Source: a virus
IMG/VR virus record: IMGVR_UViG_3300027299_000001
Location: 62,001-126,000 of that record
Strand: one strand, 5' to 3'
Length of the DNA: 64,000 nucleotides
In this document: piece after piece, positions 53,427 through 56,347 of the stretch
Numbering within the stretch: position 1 is the first letter of the stretch
Layout of the letters: every line of letters begins with the position of its first letter
Position numbers and translations under genes: made by a program
The notes under the pieces: generated by a model
What the model saw: the letters and a program-made list of their open reading frames with translations, nothing else
The model's database searches: none
Told to the model about the DNA's origin: nothing

Positions 53427-53852
53427 ATGTGGAGAAATGTTTACTATGACAATAGCCGCAAGAAGATTTTCTTGTGGAGTTGGGATAAAAATGGCAAACG
53501 CAAAATGTATGATTTTGAGTATGAGCCATTCTTGTATGTAGAGACAAACAGTGCTCAGTATGATGCAAAAAGTCTTTTCAATACCAACCTTAAAAAGATT
53601 GTATTCAAAAACGAATCAGCAAGAAATCAATATGTAAAGGATGCAGGCATTCGTCGTGTGTTCTATAACTTGAGAGCAGAGCAACAATTTTTACTTGATC
53701 TTTATCGCGATAAAGAATTTGATTGGTCTCATTTGCCATTCAAAACATTTTATTTGGATATTGAAGTTTATACTGCAAAGTATAAAAATGATAAAAAAGT
53801 CAAAATACGCAAAAAGATAGACACACAAAAAACGCGGGGAAGCAATATCTAA
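53427..53852 (+). CDS. 43: DNA polymerase N-terminal part (gp43A), split gene
   Basis: 141 residues. Matches the first 115 residues of family B phage polymerases and reaches the Exo I motif TFYLDIEVYT (D111, E113, as D112 and E114 in T4). Conserved sequence stops there; a Lys-rich tail of 25 residues follows, then TAA. The rest of the polymerase resumes in another frame at 54119. The fragment may join the C-terminal part non-covalently, as with split gp43 of some Aeromonas phages. Confidence 0.8.
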   Translation: MWRNVYYDNSRKKIFLWSWDKNGKRKMYDFEYEPFLYVETNSAQYDAKSLFNTNLKKIVFKNESARNQYVKDAGIRRVFYNLRAEQQFLLDLYRDKEFDWSHLPFKTFYLDIEVYTAKYKNDKKVKIRKKIDTQKTRGSNI

Positions 53853-54118
53853 AGCAAAAAAAGGAGTCAAAACAAACCAAAAACAATTAACATCGTCAAG
53901 ACTTAAAAAAATGTCAGACGAAGAATTTGAAATCTATTTATCGAAAATTAATCCATGCACAAGAAAACGCATGATACACTACCGAAACAATGAATGAAGT
54001 AATTGAAACAACATTGGGTGAAATCCGTGGAAATCCGCAACTACTTGAGCAATATGAAATCTGGGACGAAGAGACAAAGGAATGGACTTCATATCATAAT
54101 TCATGCTATACTCATCAG
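53775..54118 (+). other. 344-bp insertion in gene 43, coding-like remnant
   Basis: Lies between Exo I and the expected next segment SEFPEADEAKHPIN. It has three successive frames: the gp43A tail, a 55-codon frame without start (about 53826-53997) reading KKRGEAISKAKKGVKTNQKQ, and the first 43 codons of gp43B. The middle frame resembles the NUMOD3 repeat of homing endonucleases. The length is 2 mod 3, equal to the frame offset between the two polymerase parts. Confidence 0.5.
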
Positions 54119-56347
54119 TCAGAATTTCCAGAAGCAGACGAAGCAAAACATCCAATCAACGTAATCACAATTTATGATAACATATCTGAAAGCTTTTATA
54201 GTTGGGGTTTACATCCGTACGAAAAATCTGGCATCAACGCCGCGTTCGCATCGCAAGGAATTAAAGAGTTGGATGTTCAGAGAATCCATTATACCTATTG
54301 TAGAACCGAAACGGAGTTGCTCCAAAAATTTCTAGAGTTTTGGTCTAAAGATTATCCAGATGCAGTAACCGGATGGAATATTGAAGGGTTTGATATTCCA
54401 TATATCATTAATCGGATTTCTTATGTTTTGGGAGAGGATGAAGCAAAGATGCTCTCTCCTGTGCGCAAGCTTTATGTTCGACAAGGAATTGCTACAAAGT
54501 TTGGCAGAGAAATTAATAAGTGGTATATTCGAGGAATGACTTGTCTTGATTATATGGACTTGTACAAGACCTTTAGTAGAGGAGAACAAGATTCATATTC
54601 TCTTAACAACATTGCAGCAGCAGAGCTTGAAATTGGTAAATTGGCCCACAATGCGTCGGATTTGGCAGCGCTTGCTGAAAGCGATTGGAATTCATTTGTT
54701 CATTACAATATTCATGACGTAAACCTTGTCAGATTGTTGGACGAAAAATTGAATTATGTTACTATTGCGAGATTCTTAGCTTATAAAGGATTTACCAAAA
54801 TCGAAGACTCATTGGGTAAAATTATGATAGTGACTGGTGCGATGTGCAAGGAAGCTAATCGCATGAATAAAATCATTCCGACATTCAATGCAGTTGCAAC
54901 ACAAGAGGATTATGTTGGTGGATATGTCCGAGAACCGCAGCGTGGGTTGAATGAAGCAGTTGTATCATTTGACGCCAACTCCCTATATCCAAATACGATC
55001 ATCACCCTGAATCTTTCACCGGAAACAAAAATCGGTAAAATCATTTACAGGGATGACACCGAATGCAAAGTAAGATTTATCAACAAAAAAGAACAAGTAT
55101 TTACCATAGACCAGCTTGAGGAATTTTGTACAAAAGGAAGGCTTGCATTATCACAAGCAGGTGTTTTGTATCGTCAAGATGTCAAAGGCATTTGTCCGAC
55201 TTTTATTGATTCACTTTATCAAGAACGGGTTGTTATCCAAAACCAAATTGAACAGCTTGAATCACAGCAAGTAACACCAGAAATTAAACATAAGATTAAG
55301 CATTTGGATCAGATGCAGTACACAATCAAGATTTTCTTGAATTCTGCGTATGGTACTTATGCGAACAAATACAGTCCGTTCTATGATATTGATATGGCTG
55401 CAAGTATTACGGAAACAGGGCAGGCGGTTATTAAACAAGCAGCATCGATTGTTAATAAATTCTTTGTCGAGGAAAATGGTTTGCCGGATAAGGATTATAT
55501 CGTATATGGAGACACAGATTCGGTTTATTTAACTATTAAAGATTACCTCACAAAACATAATATTCCGATCTTAAAGGAAAACGGAGACGTTACAGAAGAA
55601 TGCGTTGCAGCAACGGATACACTACAGTCATTCATCAATGATAAAATTAATCATTGGGCGCGCAATACATTACATTCAGTAGATCCGCGATACTTCTTCA
55701 AGAGAGAATCAATTTGTGATGTTGGTCTTTTCTTGGAAAAGAAACGGTATATTCTTAGTGTGAGGTATGATGGCAAAAGAAACAAACACAAATACAAATA
55801 TGTTGGTGTTGAAGTTCAGCGCAGTACATATTCAAATGCTGTTAAGAAGTTGATGAAGGATATCATTACGACCGCGTTTAAATCAAAAGATCGTGCGATT
55901 ACTGACGCAAAGTATAGAGAGTGTTATGAGAGTTTCAAGACCTTACCAATTGATGATATTGCATTGCGTTCCTCTATTAAAGATTATGAGAAATATGCTT
56001 CACAGTCGAACGGATTCAATATTGCATTGCATACTCCTATTCATGTCAAATCGGCGATTTATTTCAATACATTAATTAATACATTGAATTTGAAATCAAA
56101 ATACATGCCAATCATTTCGGGCACAAAGATTCGGTATGTATACACAGCCCAAAACAAATACGGGCTCAAATGTATTGGATTTAATGACACAATCCCACCA
56201 GAGTTCGACATTAAAATCGACACAGAAAAAATGTTTGAGAAGCTAGTTGCACCTTGCATTGAAAGAGTGTATAGTTGTATCGGCTGGCAAATTCCAGACA
56301 TGAGCAGACAATATCAATGTGATTTTTTAGATCTTTTTGCCTTATGA
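53990..56347 (+). CDS. 43: DNA polymerase main part (gp43B): exonuclease and polymerase domains
   Basis: 785 residues. Exo II GWNIEGFDIPYI, Exo III YNIHDVNLVRLL, Pol A FDANSLYPNTI, Pol B KIFLNSAYGTYANKY, Pol C YGDTDSVYL and KKRYIL are all present. The first 43 residues are not conserved polymerase sequence. The ATG overlaps the stop of a short frame (ATGAATGA). The stop overlaps the next ATG, coupling the DpdA-like gene to it. Together with gp43A the total is 926 residues (T4 898). Confidence 0.92.
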   Translation: MNEVIETTLGEIRGNPQLLEQYEIWDEETKEWTSYHNSCYTHQSEFPEADEAKHPINVITIYDNISESFYSWGLHPYEKSGINAAFASQGIKELDVQRIHYTYCRTETELLQKFLEFWSKDYPDAVTGWNIEGFDIPYIINRISYVLGEDEAKMLSPVRKLYVRQGIATKFGREINKWYIRGMTCLDYMDLYKTFSRGEQDSYSLNNIAAAELEIGKLAHNASDLAALAESDWNSFVHYNIHDVNLVRLLDEKLNYVTIARFLAYKGFTKIEDSLGKIMIVTGAMCKEANRMNKIIPTFNAVATQEDYVGGYVREPQRGLNEAVVSFDANSLYPNTIITLNLSPETKIGKIIYRDDTECKVRFINKKEQVFTIDQLEEFCTKGRLALSQAGVLYRQDVKGICPTFIDSLYQERVVIQNQIEQLESQQVTPEIKHKIKHLDQMQYTIKIFLNSAYGTYANKYSPFYDIDMAASITETGQAVIKQAASIVNKFFVEENGLPDKDYIVYGDTDSVYLTIKDYLTKHNIPILKENGDVTEECVAATDTLQSFINDKINHWARNTLHSVDPRYFFKRESICDVGLFLEKKRYILSVRYDGKRNKHKYKYVGVEVQRSTYSNAVKKLMKDIITTAFKSKDRAITDAKYRECYESFKTLPIDDIALRSSIKDYEKYASQSNGFNIALHTPIHVKSAIYFNTLINTLNLKSKYMPIISGTKIRYVYTAQNKYGLKCIGFNDTIPPEFDIKIDTEKMFEKLVAPCIERVYSCIGWQIPDMSRQYQCDFLDLFAL

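Follow-up and report, generated by a model that had tools for sequence, protein, structure and literature searches.

A T4-like phage whose replicative DNA polymerase is apparently produced as two proteins, divided between Exo I and Exo II

Split replicative polymerases are already known from T4-type phages. The Aeromonas phages 44RR and 25 carry a split gene 43 (43A/43B); in phage 25 a homing gene is located between the two parts, and the 43A and 43B proteins co-purify and show polymerase activity (PMC2988022). In 44RR, gp43A has 498 aa and gp43B 391 aa, the gap between them is 49 nt, and the cut lies in the polymerase part. Inserted DNA also splits nrdA of phage Aeh1 and the topoisomerase gene of T4 (mobE and mobA, respectively), but splitting leaves the Aeh1 enzyme with full activity (PMC2988022). 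A further arrangement is found in the jumbo phage MIJ3, where PolB is encoded in two ORFs together with a putative split intein and an HNH gene (PMC6892783).

Here we consider a window of 64,000 nt from a 195,888-bp virus record, which represents a T4-like phage known from metagenomes. About 167 extra bases lie in a predicted surface turn of the proofreading domain of its replicative DNA polymerase, and as a result the enzyme appears to be produced in the form of two separate proteins. The family-B (T4 gp43-type) polymerase is encoded by two adjacent ORFs, gp43A and gp43B, in frames 0 and 2 mod 3 of the plus strand (Table 1). As in 44RR and 25, a T4-type PolB is thus distributed over two adjacent cistrons with a short non-polymerase sequence between them, but the position of the cut is different. 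Whereas 44RR gp43 is cut after residue 498, the cut here falls near residue 130, which places it in the exonuclease domain and separates Exo I from Exo II, and with a gp43A of 141 rather than 498 aa this locus is therefore a variant of the 43A/43B split and not the same split. The Aeh1 nrdA and T4 topoisomerase gaps hold an intact homing endonuclease gene, whereas only an unclassifiable remnant is present here, and the recognisable blocks of the putative split intein that joins the MIJ3 PolB halves are absent. A different kind of likeness is seen in Menderavirus (Stenotrophomonas phages Moby, Marzo, and IME-SM1), whose gp43 has an in-frame segment beyond Exo I of the type found here; the Menderavirus gene, however, is continuous and lacks the extra 167 nt.

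Table 1. Features of the divided gene 43 (positions in the window)
Feature	Position	Strand	Description
gp43A	53427..53852	+	141 aa; N-terminal domain, Exo I strand, first strand of the extra hairpin, and 12 residues from the extra DNA, then TAA; from the ORF list
Exo I-loop segment, 5' part	53775..53813	+	AKYKNDKKVKIRK; in frame in L006; similar to Menderavirus gp43
Interrupting DNA	53814..53992	+	179 nt versus 12 nt in L006; includes the TAA of gp43A, the ATG of gp43B, and the larger part of the start-less frame 53824-53996
Middle open frame without start	53824..53996	+	THKKRGEAISKAKKGVKTNQKQLTSSRLKKMSDEEFEIYLSKINPCTRKRMIHYRNNE, ending at a TGA that overlaps the gp43B start (ATGAATGA)
gp43B	53990..56347	+	785 aa; M followed by NEVIETT..., remainder of the Exo I-loop segment, Exo II, Exo III, and polymerase domain; from the ORF list
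Exo I-loop segment, 3' part	53993..54118	+	NEVIETTLGEIRGNPQLLEQYEIWDEETKEWTSYHNSCYTHQ; in frame in L006; similar to Menderavirus gp43

The two ORFs combined contain everything expected of a T4-type gp43: PolB and exonuclease domains, Exo I to Exo III, and motif C. gp43A is 74.6% identical to residues 1-118 of the gp43 of an unsplit relative (L004) and contains the stretch FYLDIEVYT, with the Asp and Glu of Exo I (LDIEV) at 53757-53765. Its last 12 residues, KIDTQKTRGSNI, are translated from the extra DNA up to the TAA stop at 53850-53852. gp43B contains SEFPEADEAKHPIN and all downstream polymerase sequence, including Exo II (GWNIEGFD, 54371-54394), Exo III (YNIHDV, with its D at 54716-54718), and motif C (YGDTDS); it matches the Pfam families DNA_pol_B (E 4e-34) and DNA_pol_B_exo1 (E 7e-18) as well as RB69 gp43 (1clq; E 6e-73). 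Being on the same strand and adjacent, the two cistrons jointly cover one unsplit homologue (L004 or L006), as in a 43A/43B-type gene. A preliminary description of this DNA had gp43A ending soon after DIEVYT and gp43B resuming in another frame, with Exo I separated from Exo II and Exo III, and the ORF and motif positions agree with it on each of these points.

The split of gene 43 is real. Contigs from four further IMG assemblies (L001, L002, L003/L104, and L008/L107) have exactly the same bases at positions 53601-54200; these contigs may represent one virus population in related samples. The recurrence of the same 600 bases makes an isolated sequencing error, which the preliminary description had named as one way for the split to be dismissed, very unlikely. 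No second DNA polymerase was found in the 196-kb record, which may be incomplete; it has one PolB and zero PolA.

Among roughly 90 gp43 loci that we tabulated, the present sequence type is the only one split at Exo I. The gp43 genes of L004, L005, and L009 (79-81% identical) and of L105 (66%) are uninterrupted at this site, with the sequences DIEVYSPYEFPEAD (L004) and DIEVYTRKADGSRGEFPNAD. The most informative comparison is with L006, which has 97.8% nucleotide identity to the window across 1.5 kb of gp43 and in which gp43 is a single unbroken ORF of 1083 aa. The loop that follows DIEVYT in L006 is 59 aa long and in frame (AKYKNDKKVKMRKAKNSNEVIETTLGEIRGNQQILEQYEIWDEETKEWTSYHNSCYTHQ). Both ends of this segment are retained in the window, where RK ends at 53813 and NEVIE begins at 53993; between them stand 179 nt in place of the 12 nt (AKNS codons) of L006, so the interrupting DNA amounts to a net +167 nt and not 344. 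The insertion of 344 bp first described (53775-54118) is correctly counted against relatives with a short loop such as L004, but it is made up of a 177-nt in-frame polymerase segment (59 aa) and 167 extra nt. Native polymerase sequence in relatives (L006 and Menderavirus) accordingly accounts for 177 of the 344 nt and for none of the other 167. L006 has the same arrangement as Menderavirus, which favors a gain of the 167 nt in the window over their loss from L006.

Homology indicates that the Exo I-loop segment is polymerase sequence. When it was used as a query against 50,697 phage records, it matched gp43 of 16 Stenotrophomonas phage (Menderavirus) records over 95% of its length (34.7%, tblastn E 0.009), and the pairwise polymerase alignment with Menderavirus (E 5e-40) traverses the segment in register, with 37% identity in an aligned stretch of 87 columns. 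The common residues include SNE, GEIR, QYE, W, and FPEADEAK, and the segment lies within an unbroken polymerase in both Menderavirus and L006. Polymerases of Vibrio Ackermannviridae have a loop of similar length without clear sequence similarity there. The segment is common to the Stenotrophomonas phages (L136:2971-3222; also L137 and L138) and the present clade and is absent from nearer relatives, a distribution that calls for repeated loss or for transfer by recombination. Between the window and L006 it differs by 2 synonymous and 3 nonsynonymous codons, compared with 104 and 12 in the native parts (Fisher p 0.013, small numbers); so low a number of silent differences would be expected of a tolerant surface element. 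The Menderavirus homology displaced an early view of the entire block of 113 codons as a single foreign insertion in frame. The 6-bp repeat TATACT (53769 and 54107) was likewise rejected as a target-site duplication because the intervening segment is common to L006 and related to Menderavirus sequence, and a kelch-like match reflects a mere β-hairpin resemblance (best single stretch, E 5.7).

To see where the break falls in the protein, we turn to an AlphaFold2 model of L006 residues 1-640 (alignment of 48 sequences; pLDDT 85, pTM 0.80), which matches RB69 gp43. In this model the segment forms a strand (124-129), a turn, a second strand (136-140), two short helices, and two further strands (154-158 and 163-166), all with moderate pLDDT of about 72-80. 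The extra DNA takes the place of residues 130-133 (AKNS) in the turn of the predicted β-hairpin, such that gp43A would retain the first strand and gp43B would begin with the second (M-NEVIETT). Two chains may reassemble readily when the cut between them lies in the turn of a hairpin. As judged from codon comparison, both halves are conserved against L006: the native part of gp43A has 10 synonymous and 1 nonsynonymous codon differences, and the counts of 104 and 12 for all native parts, which rest on comparison with one close relative and may in part predate the split, include few amino acid changes, only one of which is clearly on the window branch.

Production of gp43B requires a start codon, and the ATG at 53990 is itself part of the extra DNA, L006 having TCA AAT GAA at the same place. 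Under a position-weight model trained on the other genes of the phage, its context equals or outscores 29 of the 55 starts in a leave-one-out comparison, a rank at the median for true starts, and it outscores 96% of the 1251 internal ATGs. Downstream, no further in-frame ATG occurs until residue 154, by which point Exo II has been passed. Translation from ATG 53990 thus seems probable from its context, with (M)NEVIETTLGEIR as the predicted N-terminal sequence. A Shine-Dalgarno (SD) motif is missing, but this is no mark against the start as the phage hardly uses such motifs (SD-like in 3 of the 56 ORFs of at least 150 aa in the window). Leaders in the window are rich in A and have A at -5 and T/A at -1; together with the scarcity of SD motifs they point to a host with SD-independent initiation. 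Translation of gp43B could be weak because the gp43A stop is 137 nt upstream.

An open frame without a start does exist between the two cistrons, as first described, and is open for 57 codons. Its coding bias is weak (4.75% of shuffles score equally well), and an open frame is present in 10.6% of shuffles of this DNA. Two small changes separate the three frames: a single base close to CGCGGGG (53835-53841) and, where gp43B starts, the AATGAATG tandem repeat. The frame is probably a decayed coding relic. Its suggested resemblance to a NUMOD3 region found no statistical support in profile searches: it has no significant match to NUMOD3, GIY-YIG, HNH_3, or any Pfam, PHROG, or NCBIfam model, and no homologue was found in phage, viral-contig, or genome collections. 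The whole genome record yielded zero GIY-YIG, NUMOD3, or HNH_3 matches in the profile search and no convincing further copy of the extra DNA, and the sole genome-wide match of the middle peptide is a chance one inside a P-type ATPase. What survives of the proposal of a two-subunit polymerase with a decayed homing gene is therefore the two subunits, which are the best-supported reading, and a decayed coding insertion, which is plausible from the sequence for the 167 nt; the tie to a homing endonuclease family does not. We infer that the 167 nt came from a mobile element.

Other explanations of the break have to be weighed against a polymerase of two subunits. The gene could be dead in the population, as a pseudogene or in a defective phage, or the break could be an assembly error, and two small indels would suffice to explain the frame changes. 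This is unlikely given that the sequence is identical in five assemblies, that amino acid changes are as few as noted above, and that the record contains no replacement polymerase. gp43 is essential in T4-like phages, and this, along with the net frame offset of 2 and the two small changes that separate the frames, speaks for recoding, in which ribosomes bypass the extra DNA or shift frame twice to make one full-length polymerase. Ribosomes bypass a 50-nt gap in T4 gene 60. Here, however, ribosomes would have to skip about 140-170 nt or else shift by +1 at two separate points, the predicted RNA structure of the region is no better than that of shuffles (z -0.5) and so lends no support to bypass or frameshift signals, and gp43B has a good independent start at ATG 53990. 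We regard recoding as distinctly unlikely, and very unlikely in the form in which a bypass or double +1 shift would let the ratio of full-length to split product set proofreading.

Removal of the extra DNA after transcription or translation fares worse. Its location within an essential gene would suit a self-splicing intron, but 167 nt is short for a complete group I or II intron, the covariance search proposed earlier returned no match to any Rfam family at gathering or relaxed thresholds, and the RNA fold is the unremarkable one just described. An intron is thus highly improbable, and one of 344 nt, as raised in the preliminary description, fails in addition because more than half of it is translated in frame in L006 and has homologues in other phage polymerases. 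Least probable of all is a decayed or split intein whose halves are joined by protein splicing. Close relatives do have inteins in this gene (at motif C in L006 and in Exo II in L007), and the end of the segment, ...YTHQ|S, is superficially like ...LVHN|S (BLASTP E 0.014, one pair). Yet profiles built on related phage inteins give the segment scores that fall among those of shuffles, it has no TIGR01443 match whereas the L006 intein does, position 1 lacks Cys or Ser, and its homology is to Menderavirus polymerase instead. The profile scores and this homology speak against an intein origin of the segment, and the idea is largely refuted.

The inteins of the relatives are of interest in their own right. 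That of L006 (L006:6531-7025) lies at motif C (YGDTDS|C...VHN|S), has no endonuclease, and at about 165 aa is a mini-intein; it matches Intein_splicing of Pfam (E 1.6e-11) and is absent from the gp43B of the window. Synonymous codon differences between the window and L006 number 69 of 275 after this site and 25 of 467 before it, an excess that suggests recombination or co-conversion there. In L007 (1242-2621), Exo II of an otherwise unsplit gp43 is interrupted (GWN|C...THN|CNGFD) by a LAGLIDADG-containing intein some 460 aa long. In the gp43 of L009, about 50 residues are missing, motif C (YGDTDS) among them, and the frame changes (L009:3340-3370); this may be an assembly collapse at an intein site. 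Outside the window but in the same genome, an Intein_splicing match lies within a ribonucleotide reductase large-subunit gene (G000:C1:37794-38231), with stops in the scanned frame; it is possibly a split or decayed intein.

Overall, the best explanation, and one that we hold to be probable, is a two-subunit T4-type gp43 that reassembles non-covalently, with gp43B made from ATG 53990. The ancestor would have had one continuous gp43 whose loop downstream of Exo I contained the 59-aa segment, as that of L006 still does. About 167 bp of extra DNA, since decayed, would have arrived in the β-hairpin turn of this segment, bringing with it a stop codon to end the upstream part and an ATG from which translation resumes at the following strand of the hairpin. 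gp43A (N-terminal domain and Exo I strand) and gp43B (the rest of the exonuclease and the polymerase) would then fold together, with gp43A providing the catalytic Asp and Glu of Exo I to the joint active site. We infer that the two chains associate and that proofreading is retained. If so, this phage has a T4-type polymerase with a proofreading active site built from two chains that are cut in a predicted hairpin turn, and the nearly identical unsplit L006 enzyme is a ready control for the split one. The pair lets the split of an essential phage gene be tested with respect to the start codon of the second half, association, and proofreading. More generally, what appears to be a single insertion can be a lineage-specific polymerase segment together with a far smaller interruption.
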